Positions 2,660 to 30,161 of a stretch of DNA of 34,085 nt are shown here, in pieces (the stretch's first letter is position 1; each line of letters starts with the position of its first letter). Made by a program: the position numbers and the translations under genes. Below the pieces are notes generated by a model that ran no database searches, had not been told where the DNA came from, and saw only the letters and a program-made list of their open reading frames with translations. Origin of the DNA: a virus; the IMG/VR virus record IMGVR_UViG_3300029448_000184, positions 1 through 34,085 of that record. The stretch is one strand, 5' to 3'.

Positions 2660-5600
2660 TTAGTAATTACTGTATATTCCAGAACTTACACCAAATATTT
2701 CAGGTACAACAGACATTCCTGTTTCAACAGCATTTAAATCTTCTTCAGCCGCATCAAAAAATGTTTGAACAACGATAGGCATAAATGTGCTTAATGCTTG
2801 CTCTTTTAAATCTTCTGGATTAGTAAAATCTATATCCTGTCCTGTAAATGAATCCTTTTGAGTTATTAACTCTCTAGTTATATTTACAACAGGATTAAAT
2901 TTATACTCAATAAATTTAGTTAATTCTTTATAAGCGTCTTTATCAACCTCAACATCTTCATCAAATCCTGCATACACGCTTTTAACAGCAAGTGCCATAA
3001 TTCTTGCAGGCTGTACTAAACCACCGAATATATCCCATCTCTGACTACCTAACTGTATTTTACCAAAATCTGTATCTTCTGGGTCATCTTCGCCTTCTGC
3101 TCCTGCTAGAATAGCTAAGTTAATTATTGCTAATCCAGTACCTATTAAGAAAAACCATTGTCTTGCTACTTCTTTTCTTAATCCCGCATATTCACCCTTA
3201 TTACCAACTACTATTGCGGCAGCAGTAAATGGTGCTTGCACTCTTGATACAGCAAAACGTGGAGAGAAAAATGCGTATGATAACGCTTCTGCCGCTCCGC
3301 TAAATTGTTTTAAACTACCACGACCTGTGCACACATTAATATAGTTTGCGTAAGCTTCTAATGCTTCTGGTGGAGCATCTGGATGTTTATTTACAAAATC
3401 ATCAAACAATCCTGTTCTTAATAAATTTAAACCAGTAACCATATTTCTTTCTGAAGCACTTACGATACCACCAAAGTTTGGTATTATATCAAATTTTTTC
3501 AAGAAGTTAGTCATAAACACTTCTTCTCTAGCATCCAACGCACCATCCATACTGGATAGGTATAATCCGTATTGGTCACGAATTGGTTGCATATCACTTC
3601 TTTTTATTCTTTCATCTATTAATCTTGCTTTATCTTCTGAGAAAAATGCTTGAAACGCTTGACCAAAAGTTTTAGCCGCTAATCTAGGATTGGCTATGGA
3701 TACTATTAATCCCTGTCTTAATGCGTAAGACATATCAGCTGTTGCTAGTAATGCTCTAGGTATACCCACTATTTCTCTTGCTAAAAACGAACCTTTATTT
3801 CTTCTTAATTGATAGTTGTATAATCTATTATTTAATTCAGCTTTTTTGGCGGATAGTTCTATAAGCTTTCTTTCTAATTCTTTACTTTCAATTTCTTTAG
3901 GTTTACGCTTTCTATCCTCTATAATATCTATTGCTATAGATGGTTGCATTTTTAACATTTCATCTAGTTGTTGAATTTTTTCTTCTGTTCTAATTAATCT
4001 GTTAAGCTCTCTTAATCTATCTAAAGCACTTTGCAGTCTTTCTTCTGCTGATTTATCGTTAGACTTACCGCTAGTAAACTCATTTATATGTGCTTCAATT
4101 ATAGCTATTGTATTGTATAGTTGTTCATTTTCATATATAGCCTTTTCTGATTTAGCTATTTTTATTTCTTTCTTCAATCTAGCCACTTCTTCTGAATCTG
4201 GTTTACGTTTTTTAGGATTATCCTGTATATTTATAAGTAAATCTTCTAACACAGCTGTAAGTCTAGCTTGCTTTCTTAATTCAACGAGCATTTCTTTTAA
4301 TGTATTAATTTCTTTTTTTACAGTAGATTCTGTTCTATTACCTAGTATGTTTAAAATATCTGTCCTACCAAACTGCGGTAAATCAACAGTTAATTTTTTT
4401 ACCAATCCTTCTAATGTGGTTTCTCCTAAAGCTATATAATCTCTTGATAAATCTAAAATTGCTTTTTTTATTTCTGGAGTAATATTTAAATCATCTCTAA
4501 TAGATGGTCTAATTGTAACATCTTCTTTTACAAGCAATCCTAATTCTCTTAATGCTTTTTTGTTATCCCTTATATCTTTTAATATTTCATTCTTTTTTCT
4601 TTTACCAGATTCTGTAAGTTTTAATTTACCTCTAATTATTTTTACATATCTTTTAGCATTGGCTTCTAAATCGGCTGTTCTTAATTCTGTTTCACCTTCT
4701 GTTAATCCATCAACCTCTTTTTCTAATCTTGCTAAATCTGTTGTTACGTCTTTTATAAACTTTCTATCTTCTTTTGTTAGTTTTTGGTCACCCAAGTTTC
4801 TTTGTGCTCTTGATAACACACTAGATAAACTGTAGTATTTTAGATTAGATTTGGTAAGCCCAACATACCGTAATGTTGTTCCTGAAGCTGTATTTAACGC
4901 TTTAGCGACCGCTACTGTAGCATCTAAATCACGTAGTTTTTCATCTGCTTTATCTTGCAAAATATCAACAGCAATAATATTACCTTTTTTAGTTTCTTCT
5001 AAAATTTGTGCATCTAAATCGTTTAACATATTTTCTAATTTAGATTTATGTAATCCAACTTTTATCAAATCTAAATGATTATAAAGTAATTTTCTACCCT
5101 GTTCTAAATATGTAAATTGTGTTTTAACATATGATTCTAGGTTTTTATAAGTGTATGATTTTTGAACAGCTATTACATCGTTTGCAAATATTTGTTGTCC
5201 TTTTTCATCGTTTGGATTAAAACGATTAAATCCTTGAAGTGTAAGGTCTAAATCTCTTTTAGTTATGGACTCTGGACTTGCTCGTTGTGCTAATATGCTA
5301 GGGTCTGCTATTCTTGATTCCTTAATAGCTTCGATAAATTCTGCTAATATTTTTTGTTCATTTTCAGATAATTGTTTCTTTTTAAGTCTTATCTTTTTAA
5401 CAACTTTTGGTTCAATAGCTACATCTTCTGGTAACTCAAGTCTATCTTTTGTTCTTAAAACTGCGTTGTATTGTGCAGGAACGTGAGTTTCTTTTCCTAT
5501 ATCTGTTCTAATTTGTTTTGCACTTCTATTTTTATTTCTTAATTTTTCTATAGTTTCAGAAACATTAAATGTTGTACCATCTGCTTTTGTAAATTCAGGT

Positions 5601-18164: not shown

Positions 18165-18165
18165 G

Positions 18166-18193
18166 ATAAAAAAATATGGGGGGTTGCCCCCCC
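18166..18193 (-). terminator. Intrinsic terminator after the capsid module
   Basis: On the minus strand six G, a GCAA tetraloop and six C (18193 down to 18178) form a GC hairpin with a GNRA loop, followed by ATA and seven T (18168-18174). It starts nine bases after the stop of the 137-residue gene and ends one base before the ATG of the gp11-like gene. T7 places its main late terminator at the same point, just after the capsid gene. It is probably partial, because no promoter is visible for the tail genes beyond it. Confidence 0.82.
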
Positions 18194-18201
18194 TGTTAGT
18201 C

Positions 18202-19680: not shown

Positions 19681-19814
19681 AATATACCTCCGTTAAGTTA
19701 ATATTTACATACTAGTTTTTCGGCTATGAGTATCCGCACCTACGGGTCTGCCTAATTTAAGGTTTTCACCCCGACTCTCCCATTGGCTGTAAAAGGTATC
19801 AATGTTTAAATCTG
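19681..19814 (-). promoter_or_regulatory. Structured 5' leader of the major capsid gene
   Basis: About 130 transcribed bases lie between the capsid promoter and ATG, unusual in a block where genes mostly overlap. On the minus strand I see ATACCTTT (19791-19798) complementary, with two G-U pairs, to GGAGGTAT (19685-19692), which contains the Shine-Dalgarno site. Inside are CGGG/CCCG and GAGT/ACTC pairings that could form a junction, plus a GGT-GAAA-ACC mini-hairpin. No known riboswitch class is recognised. Function as a translational control or stability element is inferred. Confidence 0.4.
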
Positions 19815-19820
19815 AACAAC

Positions 19821-19850
19821 TATATACTATATTTTAATTTATTTTGTCAA
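19821..19850 (-). promoter_or_regulatory. Sigma-70-type promoter for the capsid module
   Basis: A perfect TTGACA (19845-19850) and TATATA (19821-19826; 5 of 6) are separated by 18 bases in a very AT-rich stretch between scaffold and capsid genes. It matches the fibre promoter in the bases before the -35 (TTTACTTGACA). It suggests transcription by the host polymerase. Confidence 0.65.
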
Positions 19851-19858
19851 GTAAATTT

Positions 19859-25422: not shown

Positions 25423-25451
25423 AAAATATCTTAGTGCAAGAAAAAAGTCAA
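25423..25451 (-). promoter_or_regulatory. Possible sigma-70-type promoter for the packaging block
   Basis: On the minus strand TTGACT (25446-25451; 5 of 6) and TATTTT (25423-25428; 4 of 6) are 17 bases apart in an A/T-rich stretch at the head of the minus-strand genes. The start would lie near 25416, giving a very short leader, so an alternative promoter further into the control region is possible. Confidence 0.4.
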
Positions 25452-25526
25452 AAAAAATAAAAGCTGTGTGAAGGTCTATATACACGTCCGATGACACGCT
25501 GTCGACTCCGACCCTACCCTCCTAAA

Positions 25527-25558
25527 CACACCCTGCCATGCTAATTCCTTGCAGTGTG
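25527..25558. other. Hairpin in control region
   Basis: CACA (25527-25530), two bulged C, CTGC (25533-25536), a 14-base loop, then GCAG-TGTG (25551-25558): eight pairs. No T-tract follows on either strand, so it is not an obvious terminator. It could be an operator or RNA element. Confidence 0.35.
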
Positions 25559-25745
25559 CCTATAATGGACAAACTAAAGGTTATTAATGGTAAGATATGC
25601 CTAAAGGGTAAATGCTATTAGAGGGCATTCTCGTAGGTTTTAGAGGGTTACACGCAGCGCGTTGGCATATTTAGTGCTATACGTGCGGGTATTGGGATAG
25701 ATTGGATGATATAAAAAAACTCATAATCTTTTGTCTGTTTCCCTA

Positions 25746-25751
25746 TATAAT
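25746..25751 (+). promoter_or_regulatory. Candidate -10 element of an early promoter
   Basis: A perfect TATAAT sits in an AT-rich run facing the early genes. No good -35 lies 16-18 bases upstream. A second TATAAT is at 25561-25566, also without a -35. One or both may be part of the early promoter region; the exact start cannot be set from sequence. Confidence 0.3.
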
Positions 25752-25816
25752 ATTTCTTTAATTATTTGTTAATTAAATGTTGAATTTTCTATATCAGCTA
25801 TGGTAGTTTATTCTTT

Positions 25817-26047
25817 GTCGGGTGTGAGAAGTTCACGGTTTTATTTAGGCACTTCACCCGACCGAGCAATCCCTCAAATTTGGGTTGTAACTTTCGAGTT
25901 CCAAATTTAGTTCGTAAAGCGGGCAGTCAGACTAACGTAACAGTCACTTGATAGTAGGGTCAGCAACGCTAACTAGCACACACTCTACCGCATTATGAAG
26001 TCATGCTCTCCACCATCTGGTGCACCATGATATGCGTAACGAACTAA
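25817..26047 (+). ncRNA. Candidate structured non-coding RNA in control region
   Basis: Nested complementary segments: GTCGGGTG (25817-25824) with CACCCGAC (25855-25862), extended by AAGT/ACTT (25829-25832/25851-25854); AAATTTGG (25876-25883) with CCAAATTT (25901-25908) enclosing AACT-TTCG-AGTT (25889-25900), a TTCG-loop hairpin; a closing nine-pair stem TTAGTTCGT (25907-25915) with ACGAACTAA (26039-26047). Inside that are CGCAT/ATGCG (25989-25993/26032-26036), TCATG/CATGA (26001-26005/26026-26030) and CACC-ATCT-GGTG (26011-26022). Several stems are perfect and nested, which suggests a folded RNA or a DNA structure at an origin. The strand is assumed from the flanking early genes. No known RNA family is recognised. 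Confidence 0.45.
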
Positions 26048-26104
26048 TTGAGAAATTATTTTTCTTCTCCTGTGGGTGAGAATCCCACAACAATTTTACG
26101 GTCA

Positions 26105-26185
26105 GCGGTTGCCAGTTTTTTGAGTGCTTTAAGCCGAAACACTAACCGCCTAATTTTTATTAAATTAACTAAAAGGAGAAATCAA
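26105..26185 (+). promoter_or_regulatory. Early-gene leader element 1 (variant hairpin + AT box + ribosome site)
   Basis: GCGGTT (26105-26110) pairs with AACCGC (26144-26149), and AGTG (26123-26126) with CACT (26140-26143), with a 12-base bulge on the 5' side. Then come TAATTTTTATTAAATTAACT and AAAAGGAGAAATCAA before the ATG. It is the most divergent hairpin of the family but has the same downstream box. Confidence 0.5.
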
Positions 26186-26386
26186 ATGACAAGTTCAGAT
26201 TATAATTACTATGTACAATGTTTTGTTAACGGCTCAAAGAGTTTTGCAGACATCATATGTTGTATAGACTATGAACACGGCAGTGAATATGCGGACAGAT
26301 GCATAAATCAAATGGAACGAAAAATCAAATCCGCAATGAATAAAGCGGGTCGTGGTCATGAAGCAATGAACTTCGAAATGAATTAG
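26186..26386 (+). CDS. Hypothetical early protein
   Basis: 66 residues from the ATG at 26186, chosen because AAAAGGAGAAATCAA stands directly before it. The frame is open further upstream but runs through the structured leader. The protein (MTSSDYNYYVQCFVNGSKSF...) contains a CC pair and a helical, basic second half (INQMERKIKSAMNKAGRGHE). No family recognised. It is the first gene of the early block. Confidence 0.65.
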   Translation: MTSSDYNYYVQCFVNGSKSFADIICCIDYEHGSEYADRCINQMERKIKSAMNKAGRGHEAMNFEMN

Positions 26387-26441
26387 CATGGCACGAGCGG
26401 GTCGCTCCCGTTCCCAATTTTATTAAAAAAGGAGAAATCAA
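26387..26441 (+). promoter_or_regulatory. Early-gene leader element 2
   Basis: Starts right after the TAG of the previous gene with CATGGCAC. GAGCGGG (26395-26401) and CCCGTTC (26407-26413) form seven pairs, one of them G-U, around loop TCGCT. Then CCAATTTTATTAA and AAAGGAGAAATCAA follow. Confidence 0.65.
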
Positions 26442-26807
26442 ATGCGTATAAAATCAGCAATACCTTTCGAGGAAGTATTACAACACTGCAATGAAGTTGA
26501 AGGTAAACAAGTATTAATAGCTAGTGATTGGACTATATCAGCTATTGGTACAAGAATGGTACGACAAGTATTATGTAAATGGGAAAGTGAGTATGTAACA
26601 TGGGAACAACATTTAGAGTTTCCTTCAGAGTGGACTAGCTACCAATATGAAACTAATATGTTTAGTGGTGGCTATTATGATACTTATAAAAAAGCATTAG
26701 ATTGTTTTAAAATACGAACAGCAAAAAAAGGTATCAAGTTTCACAAATGTACAAAGTTAACTTGGGAATCCGATTGTTGTGAATTAGAAACAACATTTGA
26801 AAACTAG
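26442..26807 (+). CDS. Hypothetical early protein
   Basis: 121 residues (MRIKSAIPFEEVLQHCNEVE...) with a strong ribosome site. Many aromatic residues, notably a WTSYQYETNMFSGGYYDTYK stretch, and several cysteines (one CC pair near the C terminus). Soluble alpha/beta composition. No family recognised. It sits between two copies of the leader element, so it is an independent translation unit. Confidence 0.65.
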   Translation: MRIKSAIPFEEVLQHCNEVEGKQVLIASDWTISAIGTRMVRQVLCKWESEYVTWEQHLEFPSEWTSYQYETNMFSGGYYDTYKKALDCFKIRTAKKGIKFHKCTKLTWESDCCELETTFEN

Positions 26808-26861
26808 CACGGCACGAACGGGTCGCTCCCGTTCCCAATTTTATTAAAAAAGGAGAAATAA
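26808..26861 (+). promoter_or_regulatory. Early-gene leader element 3
   Basis: GAACGGG (26816-26822) pairs perfectly with CCCGTTC (26828-26834) around TCGCT. Compared with element 2, the G-U pair is here A-U. Then CCAATTTTATTAA and AAAAGGAGAAATAA follow. Confidence 0.65.
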
Positions 26862-27044
26862 ATGAAAGTATATAAAGTAGTTGTTAAAGATGTTTATTTG
26901 GTTGAAGCAAATTCTCCCAAAGAAGCAGAGTCTAAATTTGATGCTAAACATTCCTTAGACTGGAAAGATGTACATTTAGACCATTATAAACAAAGTAAAC
27001 CAATAAAAGTAGCAGACCATCCTTTTTGGAAGGAGTCTGTATGA
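26862..27044 (+). CDS. Small hypothetical protein, paralogue of the next gene
   Basis: 60 residues, MKVYKVVVKDVYLVEANSPKEAESKF at the start (shown in two parts: strand MKVYKVVVKDVYLV, then EANSPKEAESKF). The strand followed by V-x-A-x-S-x-x-E/D-A is a layout common in small phage proteins. The stop overlaps the next start as ATGA. The next gene has the same layout, so the two probably arose by duplication. Function unknown. Confidence 0.6.
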   Translation: MKVYKVVVKDVYLVEANSPKEAESKFDAKHSLDWKDVHLDHYKQSKPIKVADHPFWKESV

Positions 27045-27190
27045 AAGAATATTCAGTAGTATGGGAAAAAGAATTTGGAGTAGCACAACAAAATGTGTGG
27101 GCTAATTCAGAGGATGATGCAGTTAACAAAATTACAAAAAAAGTAGATTCCGAATGCGTAGACTGTTTAGTCGAAGTTTGTGAAGTTTAG
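27041..27190 (+). CDS. Small hypothetical protein, paralogue of the previous gene
   Basis: 49 residues, MKEYSVVWEKEFGVAQQNVW followed by ANSEDDAVNKITKKV and a C-terminal part with three cysteines (CVDC and C47). The ATG overlaps the previous stop by four bases, and there is no leader element, so translation is coupled; AAGGAGTCTGT provides a ribosome site. The strand-loop-helix layout mirrors the gene before. Confidence 0.6.
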   Translation: MKEYSVVWEKEFGVAQQNVWANSEDDAVNKITKKVDSECVDCLVEVCEV

Positions 27191-27248
27191 CATGGCTTTA
27201 GCGGGTCGCTCCCGCTTCCAATTTTATTAATTAACCAAAGGAGAAAAA
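27191..27248 (+). promoter_or_regulatory. Early-gene leader element 4
   Basis: CATGGC follows the stop. AGCGGG (27200-27205) pairs with CCCGCT (27211-27216) around TCGCT; here the second pair is G-C. CCAATTTTATTAATTAACC and AAAGGAGAAAAA follow. Confidence 0.65.
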
Positions 27249-28214
27249 ATGGAAATAGCAAATACAAGTAACAAAGACGTACAAGAGTATCGCAGTCTAG
27301 CTGAAACTAATCTTAACTGGGATGTCATCGAACGTAATATTTATCGTCATATTCAAGATAAATTTTATGAGCCGATTAACTCTCACAAGATTATTGAACG
27401 TAGCGATACAAACGAATCACTAGGTGTTGTCGGTGCAAAATATCAACCAATTCAAAATTCTCAAATTTGGGATGCTTTGAATCAGTCGTTAGCGGGCATT
27501 GATTACAAGATTACAAATGCGGGTCACTTAAAAAACGGCGGGAAGATATTTATCCAAGCTGAAGTGGGTGACGGATTTGCAATCAACGGTGATAAATTTG
27601 TCGGATACATCACGATGTGGTCATCGCATGACGGCTCATCTAGTTGTGTGCTTGGTGATACACTTGAAAGAGTGTGGTGTAGTAATTCGTTCATATCGTC
27701 ATTGTACAAGAAAAATTCTATGCTTCGCATGAAAGTTAGACATACTAAAAATGCAAGTATTAGATTTGATAATATGATGTATCAGCTTGACGAGATATTC
27801 ACTCACCGCAAAAAAGCTTTCGAAGATATCGAACGCCTTGCGAACGAGCCTATATCGGATAACCATGCTAGATTGTTTAGCATTGGTTTTGTCAATTCAC
27901 CCAAGACTCGTGGTATAAATACCGCAGATGAAATACACGGTTTATTCCGTGCGGGTATTGGTAACACAGGCGAAACCAAGTACGACCTGTTCAACGGTTT
28001 CACCGAGTATTATACTCATGGTGCAAATCGTGATGAAAAAACAGATGAACAAAAAAATAAACAGTTTGGCTCATCTGAATTGGGACACGGTGCTAAAGCT
28101 AAATCCCGTGTATTAGAAATATTATCAAATCCAGAAACAACAGACCTATTAATTGCAAAGGGTCGTAAAATATTAAGAGAAGCTGAAAACATCAAGAGTG
28201 TTGTAGCTATCTAG
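27249..28214 (+). CDS. DUF932 / phage-plasmid-like protein
   Basis: 321 residues. GVVGAKYQPIQNSQIWDALN near residue 58, the GGKIFIQAEVG segment, FVGYITMWSSHDGSSS and the RVWCSNSF segment followed by MKVRHTKNASIRF are typical of the DUF932 family (phage/plasmid-like protein TIGR03299). Family members are common in phages, plasmids and mobile elements; their biochemical role is unclear. It has its own leader element. Base composition is richer in G+C than the small genes around it. Confidence 0.85.
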   Translation: MEIANTSNKDVQEYRSLAETNLNWDVIERNIYRHIQDKFYEPINSHKIIERSDTNESLGVVGAKYQPIQNSQIWDALNQSLAGIDYKITNAGHLKNGGKIFIQAEVGDGFAINGDKFVGYITMWSSHDGSSSCVLGDTLERVWCSNSFISSLYKKNSMLRMKVRHTKNASIRFDNMMYQLDEIFTHRKKAFEDIERLANEPISDNHARLFSIGFVNSPKTRGINTADEIHGLFRAGIGNTGETKYDLFNGFTEYYTHGANRDEKTDEQKNKQFGSSELGHGAKAKSRVLEILSNPETTDLLIAKGRKILREAENIKSVVAI

Positions 28215-28309
28215 ATTGTTTTGATAGGACGCAATCAACCGAACATAAATAAAATGGAATCTTCCTAGATAAGAAAAAAACTGTCTACCTATCAACAAAA
28301 CTAAACAAG
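28215..28309 (+). other. Spacer with alternative stems
   Basis: TTGATAGG (28221-28228) can pair with CCTATCAA (28288-28295), while its first five bases can instead pair with ATCAA at 28234-28238. A GGAA-TC-TTCC inverted repeat lies between. The stems exclude each other, as in attenuators. No open frame fits here. Confidence 0.3.
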
Positions 28310-28366
28310 CATGGCACGAGCGGGTCGCTCCCGCTCCTATTTTTAATAATTAACAAAGGAGAAAAA
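28310..28366 (+). promoter_or_regulatory. Early-gene leader element 5
   Basis: CATGGCAC, then GAGCGGG (28318-28324) pairs perfectly with CCCGCTC (28330-28336) around TCGCT. It is followed by CTATTTTTAATAATTAAC and AAAGGAGAAAAA. Confidence 0.65.
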
Positions 28367-28561
28367 ATGATAGAGATAGAGTATAAACCAAAATCAAAAG
28401 TTGTGGTATTCAAAATAGAAAAGCAAAAGGTTCATGTTGAAGATGGCTATGCATATTTTTACTTAGATGAAATTGATGCTAGAAATCTTTCAAACAAAGT
28501 AATCGTTGAAATTGACGGTGAAAGAATGTCGGAATATTACAAAGAAGATGATGTCTTTTAG
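28367..28561 (+). CDS. Hypothetical early protein
   Basis: 64 residues, MIEIEYKPKSKVVVFKIEKQ at the start, alternating hydrophobic and charged residues that suggest a small all-beta fold with an acidic tail (SEYYKEDDVF). Strong ribosome site within the leader element. The next gene follows after 13 bases. No family recognised. Confidence 0.6.
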   Translation: MIEIEYKPKSKVVVFKIEKQKVHVEDGYAYFYLDEIDARNLSNKVIVEIDGERMSEYYKEDDVF

Positions 28562-28574
28562 AAAGGAGATAGTT

Positions 28575-28724
28575 ATGTCAGATGAAATAGATGTTAGATT
28601 GCAATCGCTTGATAGTGCAATTGAAAGTGCTGAGTATGATATTCGTGTTTGGAAAAAACTTCTTGATGAAAAACAAGAGGTACTGGAAGCATTGCGTGAT
28701 AGACGAGTTAAATACTCTCTATAA
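28575..28724 (+). CDS. Small coiled-coil hypothetical protein
   Basis: 49 residues from ATG 28575, placed by AAAGGAGATAGTT. Longer in-frame readings to 28506 lack a ribosome site and would overlap the previous gene. The chain is almost entirely helical with heptad-like leucines (LQSLDSAIESAEYDIRVWKK, LLDEKQEVLEALRDRRV), so it probably forms a coiled coil. Function unknown. Confidence 0.6.
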   Translation: MSDEIDVRLQSLDSAIESAEYDIRVWKKLLDEKQEVLEALRDRRVKYSL

Positions 28725-28730
28725 ATACAT

Positions 28731-28774
28731 GAGCGGTGAAATTCCGCTCCCAATTTTTAAACAAAGGAGAAAAA
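28731..28774 (+). promoter_or_regulatory. Early-gene leader element 6 (different loop)
   Basis: GAGCGG (28731-28736) pairs with CCGCTC (28744-28749) around a TGAAATT loop. CCAATTTTTAAAC and AAAGGAGAAAAA follow. Confidence 0.6.
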
Positions 28775-28999
28775 ATGTTAGATGCAACTATAAAAAACAT
28801 TGAGTGGAAACGTTCACAAAGAAAACCTAACACTCAAAAAAGTAAGCAAGGTATAAAAGAAAAGTTGAAAGACCCAAACAGTCCTTTATACAAAACAGAT
28901 TGGATTGCAGACATGAAAAAACAAGGCTATCCAACAAAATATATCAATAAATGTAAAAGAGTTGCTAGTGACGTGTTACACGACCCAACAAATTGGTAA
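28775..28999 (+). CDS. Small basic hypothetical protein
   Basis: 74 residues from ATG 28775 behind AAAGGAGAAAAA. It is Lys-rich (IEWKRSQRKPNTQKSKQGIK), followed by a part with aromatic and proline residues (DPNSPLYKTDWIADMKKQGY) and ends HDPTNW. The net charge is strongly positive, which fits nucleic-acid or protein binding. No family recognised. Confidence 0.6.
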   Translation: MLDATIKNIEWKRSQRKPNTQKSKQGIKEKLKDPNSPLYKTDWIADMKKQGYPTKYINKCKRVASDVLHDPTNW

Positions 29000-29002
29000 A
29001 GC

Positions 29003-29049
29003 TATGCGGGAGCTATATCCCGCACCAATTTTTAAACAAAGGAGAAAAA
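29003..29049 (+). promoter_or_regulatory. Early-gene leader element 7 (different stem and loop)
   Basis: TGCGGGA (29005-29011) pairs perfectly with TCCCGCA (29018-29024) around GCTATA. CCAATTTTTAAAC and AAAGGAGAAAAA follow. Confidence 0.6.
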
Positions 29050-29502
29050 ATGAAAGCAGTATTAGAATTACTTATACCTGTGCTTATACATGTTGAGAGT
29101 GGTGGTGATGTAAATGCTATAGGCGATATGGGAGAAGCTGTCGGTTGTTTGCAGATACATGAGATTATGGTTGATGATGTTAATCGTATAGCCGAAAAGT
29201 TTGGTTATATATGTCACCATACTGACGATTGGGTATATTCTGAATATTCCTATGATGATAGATATTCAAGAATAAAATCTACTCAAATGTGTGAGTATTA
29301 TCTTAATTATTATTACGATAAATATGTCGAATGGTATTACAAGCGAACCATAGAACAACGAAAGCATAAAACTTCACCGCTTGATGTGTATGAAGTGTGT
29401 GCTAGATTGTGGAATGGTGGCTACGAGGGATTAAAAAGAAATCCTAAACCTACCGATAAGTATTGGAGTAAAGTTTTGCGGATACTTAAAACCGCACCTT
29501 GA
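29050..29502 (+). CDS. Lysozyme-like / transglycosylase-type protein (putative endolysin)
   Basis: 150 residues from ATG 29050. HVESGGDVNAIGD at residues 14-26 carries the Glu16-Ser motif of lysozyme-like transglycosylases, followed by GEAVGCLQIH (28-37) matching the G-x-x-QI segment, and LWNGGYEG (120-127) matching the usual YN-G motif. It would cleave the glycan strands of peptidoglycan. There is no signal peptide, so release would need a holin, none of which is seen here. Placement in the early block, not beside the late genes, is unusual for a lysis enzyme. A role during entry or takeover is an alternative. Confidence 0.75.
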   Translation: MKAVLELLIPVLIHVESGGDVNAIGDMGEAVGCLQIHEIMVDDVNRIAEKFGYICHHTDDWVYSEYSYDDRYSRIKSTQMCEYYLNYYYDKYVEWYYKRTIEQRKHKTSPLDVYEVCARLWNGGYEGLKRNPKPTDKYWSKVLRILKTAP

Positions 29503-29516
29503 CTGTAGGAGTTCAG

Positions 29517-29544
29517 TTGACGTTTGGCGATGTCGTCGTATAAA
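29517..29544 (+). promoter_or_regulatory. Possible sigma-70-type promoter overlapping leader element 8
   Basis: TTGACG (29517-29522; 5 of 6) and TATAAA (29539-29544; 5 of 6) are 16 bases apart. The -10 would lie in the loop of the leader hairpin, so initiation here would remove the 5' half of the hairpin. Confidence 0.35.
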
Positions 29545-29581
29545 TCGCCACCAATTTTATTAACTAACAAAAGGAGAAAAA
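29525..29581 (+). promoter_or_regulatory. Early-gene leader element 8 (different stem, larger loop)
   Basis: TGGCGAT (29525-29531) pairs perfectly with ATCGCCA (29544-29550) around 12 bases. CCAATTTTATTAACTAAC and AAAAGGAGAAAAA follow. Confidence 0.6.
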
Positions 29582-29848
29582 ATGAATGACATAATACCGC
29601 TACAATCTGTAGCAAATGACGTAATGGCTAACTTGTTAAATCAAAGAGAATCTAATTCATCTGAAATAGATTTTAAAATTGGTGATACAATTACATTCAA
29701 AGCACAAACTATGTACTCATGCCGTAAAGCAACAAGAAAAGTTGTTGGTAAGGATTACACTGGAAGACCGCTTGTCCGATATGACGGATGGGATGATTTC
29801 CAAATCAGATGGAATGAGATTACACACATCAACGGAGTAAGAGTATGA
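29582..29848 (+). CDS. Hypothetical protein with SH3-like barrel pattern
   Basis: 88 residues. The second half (KIGDTITFKAQTMYSC, RKATRKVVGKDYTGRPLVRY, DDFQIRWNEI) has the short alternating strands and turn placement of small SH3-like or Tudor-like barrels. The first part is a short helix. The stop overlaps the next start as ATGA. Function unknown. Confidence 0.6.
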   Translation: MNDIIPLQSVANDVMANLLNQRESNSSEIDFKIGDTITFKAQTMYSCRKATRKVVGKDYTGRPLVRYDGWDDFQIRWNEITHINGVRV

Positions 29849-30075
29849 ATGAAACACATTACAAATCAGCTAATTTCAAAAGACTAGCTGAAAAAAGAAC
29901 AAATGAAATTCTAGATTTGTTAGACAAACTAGCTAATCTGGGAAACAAAAGTAATTATGAATACACGAGTGAAGAAGCAAAACAAATAATTCATGCGGTC
30001 GAAAGCAAATTTTCAGTTGTAAAAAATGCTTTTAATGGTAAGGTTGTTGTTAAGAAAAGATTCGAATTACTCTAA
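29845..30075 (+). CDS. Hypothetical helical protein
   Basis: 76 residues, nearly all helical (FKRLAEKRTNEILDLLDKLA and ...EEAKQIIHAVESKF), coupled to the previous gene by a four-base overlap and without its own leader element. No membrane segment and no family recognised. Confidence 0.6.
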   Translation: MNETHYKSANFKRLAEKRTNEILDLLDKLANLGNKSNYEYTSEEAKQIIHAVESKFSVVKNAFNGKVVVKKRFELL

Positions 30076-30104
30076 CGGTTGTGTTGGAGTCTAAACTAAA
30101 TCGT

Positions 30105-30161
30105 GGTCTTGGGTGCAGACCGTAAATAGCACCACCAATTTCATTAAACAAAGGAGAAAAA
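30105..30161 (+). promoter_or_regulatory. Early-gene leader element 9 (two alternative stems)
   Basis: GGTCT (30105-30109) can pair with AGACC (30117-30121). Alternatively GGTGC (30112-30116) can pair with GCACC (30129-30133), extended by GGT/ACC. Then CCAATTTCATTAAAC and AAAGGAGAAAAA follow. Confidence 0.55.

Follow-up and report, generated by a model that had tools for sequence, protein, structure and literature searches.

The leader of T7 gene 10, which gives strong translation, consists of a hairpin, an AU-rich stretch, AAGGAG and the ATG, and it is present as a single copy that starts at a phage promoter and is not repeated between cistrons. Structured RNAs that recur along phage genomes have also been described, as clustered hammerheads flank phage genes and the idea that they serve mRNA processing has already been published (Perreault et al. 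2011, PMC3088659). Different ribozyme classes share gene locations, the reason why phages keep ribozymes beside genes is unexplained, and pistol, hatchet and twister-sister were found by way of the locations of known ribozymes, at which other structures of unknown nature stood (PMC10085705). In cluster K mycobacteriophages, the SAS/ESAS sequences, for which the criterion is a 13-bp GGGATAGGAGCCC within a few nucleotides of the start codon, have, in some copies, upstream inverted repeats, which its authors found not to behave as RNA hairpins (PMC3203893). A plastid intercistronic expression element, in turn, triggers cleavage of polycistronic RNA into stable, translatable monocistronic mRNAs (PMC2230500).

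Here we analysed a marine virus record of 34,085 bases (the whole of this stretch is called the window below), in which the minus strand carries capsid and tail genes and the plus strand, from 26.1 kb on, holds an early block. This block encodes a DUF932 protein (g5, 27249), an early lysozyme-like protein (g9), an exonuclease-like protein (g12, 30162), a replication initiator and a DnaB helicase. The portal protein is about 28% identical to pelagiphage portals; no close isolate was found, as phage isolates were unmatched both by DNA and by the g12 protein, and the bacterial genomes searched contained no relatives of the terminase. In those portions of the literature on pelagiphages and ribozymes that were available to us, we found no paper linking ribozymes to this phage group.

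A sequence-only reading of the window had pointed to nine copies of a leader in the early block and had stated that it knew no described family of this layout. All nine elements exist, with correct sequence and coordinates; the statement on novelty, however, is not supported in view of the clustered phage hammerheads (PMC3088659), the cluster K sequences (PMC3203893) and the T7 gene 10 leader. The T7 leader has the same order of parts, whereas the window leaders are repeated between cistrons. Like the hammerheads of Perreault et al. (PMC3088659), the window leaders put several structured RNAs on a single phage transcript, next to individual genes or small blocks of genes; unlike them, they are built of hairpins, a constant AU box and a ribosome site, without a hammerhead core. 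With SAS/ESAS (PMC3203893) they share the repetition just upstream of non-structural gene starts that have larger gaps and, in some copies, inverted repeats upstream, but all nine are of the AAAGGAGAAA type and not of the GGGATAGGAGCCC type. The plastid element (PMC2230500) is likewise small and intercistronic, but it belongs to a chloroplast system and is likened here by description, not by sequence. What is new is that plain hairpins occupy a slot with the same downstream box in which close relatives use hammerhead, pistol or twister.

Each of the nine leaders, all on the plus strand, runs in the order hairpin, AU-rich box, AAAGGAG(AAA) and ATG, with CCAATTTTATTAA or CTATTTTTAATAA as the box and AAAGGAGAAA as the ribosome site; the AU-rich box and AAAGGAG are the most conserved parts. 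A covariance model made from 13 leaders (six from the window plus relatives) finds eight of the nine at E values of 6e-16 to 2e-5, including those of g10 and g12, which were absent from its input, and it has no further match in the window below E=0.1, the next one standing at E=0.11. The leader of g1 (26105-26186; hairpin 26105-26149, GCGGTT...AACCGC; box CTAATTTTTATTAA; AAAAGGAG; ATG at 26187) is atypical in having a 6-bp stem around a 33-nt loop, and the model scores it at E=0.24 by its box alone, the hairpin not being recovered. Copies 2-5 are near-identical paralogues with a common AGCATGGC and GAGCGGGTCGCTCCCGCTC and are therefore not countable as independent copies. They precede g2 (26387-26441; hairpin 26395-26413, GAGCGGG-TCGCT-CCCGTTC; AGCATGGC flank, box CCAATTTTATTAA, AAAGGAG; E=1.5e-11), g3 (26808-26861; hairpin 26816-26834, GAACGGG-TCGCT-CCCGTTC; CCAATTTTATTAA, AAAGGAG; E=7.6e-12), the DUF932 gene g5 (27191-27248; hairpin 27200-27216, AGCGGG-TCGCT-CCCGCT; CCAATTTTATTAA, AAAGGAG; E=5.9e-15) and g6 (28310-28366; hairpin 28318-28336, GAGCGGG-TCGCT-CCCGCTC; AGCATGGC flank, box CTATTTTTAATAATTAAC, AAAGGAG; E=5.7e-16). 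A conserved TCGC[TA] loop and AGC flank characterize one subtype of leader. A short upstream ORF within the hairpin, starting from the ATG of AGCATGGC, was considered and rejected, as it is disrupted in several copies.

The remaining hairpins differ more in sequence. Those of g8 (28731-28774; hairpin 28731-28749, GAGCGG-TGAAATT-CCGCTC; CCAATTTTTAAAC, AAAGGAG; E=5e-12) and g9 (29005-29049; hairpin 29005-29024, TGCGGGA-GCTATA-TCCCGCA; CCAATTTTTAAAC, AAAGGAG; E=2.8e-8) reach MFE z values of -3.95 and -3.97, respectively, and g10 is preceded by a TGGCGAT...ATCGCCA hairpin at 29525-29550 (leader 29525-29581; CCAATTTTATTAACTAAC, AAAAGGAG; E=3.2e-9). In the leader of g12 (30070-30161; CCAATTTCATTAAAC, AAAGGAG; E=1.9e-5), the GGTGC...GCACC hairpin at 30112-30133 has a CTCTAAC...GTTGGAG hairpin motif upstream of it and a loop that is able to pair with its own 5' flank (GGTCT/AGACC). 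Such a loop/5'-flank pseudoknot looks promising in the leaders of g12 and g10, but across the whole set of leaders the pairing was not better than with shuffled flanks (p=0.21), and we rejected it as a general feature.

In the nine window leaders, the hairpin is separated from AAGGAG by 14-23 nt (sd 3.1), whereas 5-103 nt (sd 31) lie between it and the preceding stop codon. Because the hairpin is thus spaced to the ribosome site and not to the stop, it goes with the gene that follows and not with the tail of the gene before; g1, the first gene, is leadered as well, though it has no protein cistron upstream. The earlier observation that the spacing is kept while hairpin sequences differ is thereby borne out, position and pairing both being retained. 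All early gaps longer than 13 nt carry a leader, which is found nowhere else in the window, in support of the suggestion that the leader marks where each translation unit begins. The leaderless genes g4, g7, g11 and g13-g16 indeed overlap or closely follow their predecessors (gaps of -26 to +13 nt), and it is for this reason that the genes from 31129 on lack a leader. An early/late split of the RegB kind, with GGAG confined to early sites, was discarded since several late genes have GGAG too.

The stem itself was assessed by anchoring it to the box. Of the 18 AT-boxed starts that the window and the related contig L019 have together, 15 carry a stem of 5 bp or more which includes four or more GC pairs and stops no further than 2 nt from the box, compared with 0.28 in shuffles. 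Pairing between arms was seen in 111/126 cells against 69.3 ± 5.4 with shuffled arms (18 distinct arm pairs from the window and relatives), in a set that includes some relatives picked for having a stem, so that the box-anchored test is the cleaner one. Within copies 2-5 covariation did not exceed shuffles, as these copies are near-identical. The check for covariation in homologues that the sequence-only reading had proposed thus came out mixed: across leader types, in the partly stem-selected set, pairing lies far above shuffles, and inside the near-identical subset covariation stays at shuffle level. Leaders have a mean MFE z of -1.8, other starts one of -0.2.

Comparison with L019, whose DUF932 protein is 90% identical to that of the window, indicated that the modules swap. 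There, the same leaders mark the starts of units with the hairpins relocated: the hairpin of window g10 lies upstream of the g9 orthologue, and g10 has a GAGCGG...CCGCTC hairpin ahead of the same box. The L019 copy of the g9 hairpin (TGCGGGA/TCCCGCA) contains a long insertion within the loop, and the gene content between leaders turns over between the two genomes. We also observed in L019, at 3846-4029, a noncoding insertion of ~180 nt that separates a leader hairpin from the start codon after it; this insertion is not in the window and has no match in Rfam. Pattern matches in L006 and nearly all of those in L020-L055 were rejected as unrelated chance matches, the exceptions being L034 and the L018/L019 contigs.

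Sister phages, having capsid genes and/or the helicase-exonuclease block in common with the window (identities of 52-82% for terminase, up to 78% for portal and 52-65% for helicase), carry hammerheads of types I and II, pistol and type-P5 twister directly ahead of early start codons, and thus exactly the clustered hammerhead arrangement of PMC3088659. Type I hammerheads were called by their full core and stems, their Rfam hammerhead scores being sub-threshold. L081 has seven elements in total, nearly all abutting start codons: four Hammerhead_II (three above Rfam gathering and one at 36.8 vs 37) and three type I hammerheads. One Hammerhead_II above Rfam gathering is present in L069, two type I hammerheads in L077, two type I and one type II in L084, and one type I in L085. 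Pistol (RF02679) and type-P5 twister (RF02684), neither of which has a match in the window, occupy the same early intercistronic site in L070 and L058. L070, whose terminase and portal are 82% and 78% identical to those of the window, has two pistol matches (62.2 and 59.2 bits vs gathering 34.5) and three Twister-P5 elements, one below gathering; L058 has three Twister-P5 above gathering.

Different modules were found at corresponding genes. The DUF932 gene is preceded by Twister-P5 in L070 and L058 and by a hairpin in the window, L019 and L009, and the g3 homologue of L084 (65% over 26 aa) has a type I hammerhead where the window has a hairpin. In L069 both kinds stand side by side, one early gene having a type II hammerhead followed by ACACCAATTTAAATTAAACAAAAGGAG and the adjacent one a GGCGGGTCGCTCCCGCC hairpin followed by ACCAATTTCAAACAAAGGAG. 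Each of these neighbouring leaders precedes ACCAATTT...AAACAAAGGAG or AAACAAAAGGAG, and since the CCAATTT box and ribosome site are the same behind both module kinds, they are independent of the module that precedes them. Twister and pistol leaders lack the AU box, so there the module is only partly shared. Related phages thus keep one slot directly before early starts, filled by four known ribozyme folds or by plain hairpins.

In the window, no Rfam ribozyme was detected, even with a cutoff of E<=10 across the leader region, nor pistol (RF02679) or twister at the gathering score. A scan for the hammerhead core of types I-III (CUGANGA ... GAAA ... UH with three stems) returned one stemless match inside the g9 coding sequence. 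The Rfam near-matches freshwater-2, DUF2815 and preQ1-II were rejected, being far under gathering and driven by the ribosome-site tail. Self-cleaving RNAs leave products with 5'-OH and 2',3'-cyclic phosphate ends, and we know of no way for a 19-nt hairpin to self-cleave. By the location logic that yielded pistol, hatchet and twister-sister, the window leaders are ribozyme candidates too. That the window-type leaders (AGCATGGC with the GCGGGTCGCTCCCGC hairpin, and the hairpins with loop-flank pairing) form a very small new class of self-cleaving RNA nevertheless seems improbable; if true, such a class would stand where the sisters have hammerhead, pistol or twister.

We consider it on balance probable that the nine elements are a modular early-gene leader, in which an exchangeable RNA module separates cistrons and the fixed AU box with AAAGGAG starts translation. 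The layout, positions, spacing and restriction to uncoupled starts, the replacement of one module by another at orthologous junctions and the sister ribozymes can be read directly from the compared genomes; that separation of cistrons is the function common to hairpins and ribozymes, and how a hairpin would achieve it, we infer. As self-cleaving ribozymes fill the exchangeable slot in the sisters, the most likely shared job would be to split the polycistronic early message into separate units whose ends are structured. The exchangeable part, in the window the GC-rich hairpin, would set neighbouring cistrons of the long early transcript apart, while the AU-rich box and AAAGGAG would initiate translation of the next unit independently. 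After cleavage by a type II hammerhead, the downstream RNA would open with a stem, followed by the AU box and ribosome site, and this product, as predicted from the fold, resembles the window layout. Because no ribozyme is detectable in the window, we favour for its hairpins either that a host RNase cuts behind them, within the AU box, or that they insulate without a cut, self-cleavage being a minority possibility. An RNA-processing site had been among the options listed earlier, and the ribozymes at the same junctions in sisters speak in its favour. With one slot and varied modules, it becomes testable which property matters, the cut or the structured end.

Alternatively, the hairpins could act in translation, in transcription or in protein binding and have no more than their site in common with the ribozymes. 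A translation-initiation leader that works without cutting, with the hairpin blocking upstream structure or ribosome run-through and the AU box acting as a 30S landing site (ribosomal protein S1) next to a strong ribosome site, on the model of the T7 gene 10 leader, would agree with the high conservation of box and AAAGGAG, with the spacing fixed relative to the ribosome site, with the leader at g1 and with the unpaired fraction of leadered starts (0.66 vs about 0.50 for others). We regard it as rather unlikely, since it leaves the four ribozyme classes at the same site in sisters unexplained and since breaking the hairpin in silico left ribosome-site accessibility unchanged (0.66 to 0.65); exposing the ribosome site is therefore not an obvious role of the hairpin, and we rejected the hairpin as an opener of that site. 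Leaky intrinsic terminators or pause sites could grade expression along the early operon: five of nine leaders fit a loose terminator pattern (a GC stem with a U-rich tract directly after), the early region has 11 such sites compared with 4.0 ± 1.9 in shuffles, and the T6 tract of a related element in L092 is complete. However, in most copies a conserved spacer, the 4-nt CCAA (or CTA), sets the T run off from the stem, sister ribozyme leaders have no T run, and the hairpin keeps its place relative to the start codon and not to the stop before it. Moreover, nine terminators in series would starve the replication genes, given no excess of internal promoters (23 promoter-like sites vs 36 expected). 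Thus, of the weak-terminator option raised by the sequence-only reading, the terminator-like look of five leaders stands, the spacer disfavours it, and we find it quite unlikely.

Recognition by an RNA-binding protein, of phage or host, that turns early translation on or off would suit an element with many copies restricted to early genes and with the conserved loop and flank of one subtype; wide variation of hairpin and loop sequences among copies and the substitution of unrelated ribozyme folds in sister phages make it very unlikely. The near identity of copies 2-5, the shifting of modules between junctions and the turnover of genes between leaders would also be expected of a mere repeat spread by recombination between gene cassettes without RNA function. 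Pairing is kept across differing stems, though, spacing is fixed, and the sister ribozymes imply selection on RNA, so that this explanation is very unlikely.

Several further RNA features were observed. Glutamine riboswitch aptamers at the Rfam gathering score occur in nearly all sister phages (L069 13629, L070 14446, L074 18341, L076 11711, L080 4122, L081 12276, L082 12101, L084 12387, L085 12151 and L058 18134). Ahead of the early genes of the window lies a long noncoding stretch (25424-26101), in which ~290 nt from 25813 are strongly conserved in L019 and adopt a predicted multi-branched fold with two compensatory pairs, these coming from two sequences only. The conserved part includes TTCTTCTCCT, the complement of the early ribosome sites, and may possibly be an early leader RNA with a regulatory or antitermination role. 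On the minus strand, a promoter-like TTGACA/TATAGT and a possibly structured leader precede the major capsid gene (19681-19858), and a GGGGGG-GCAA-CCCCCC hairpin followed by ATATTTTTTT (18165-18201) abuts a tail gene start without a ribosome site. The upstream motif of the g12 leader, CTCTA[AG]C-loop-GTTGGAGTNTAAACTAAA (window copy at 30070-30100, with no match in Rfam), recurs in several viral contigs, namely at L009 5106, L086 3859, L089 4080 (minus strand), L091 2156 (minus strand), L092 1148 and L093 12321, often with a second hairpin and T run after it. Homologues of the g9 protein (31-34%) are encoded close to this motif at L086 4770 and L092 660, in contigs that are otherwise unrelated.
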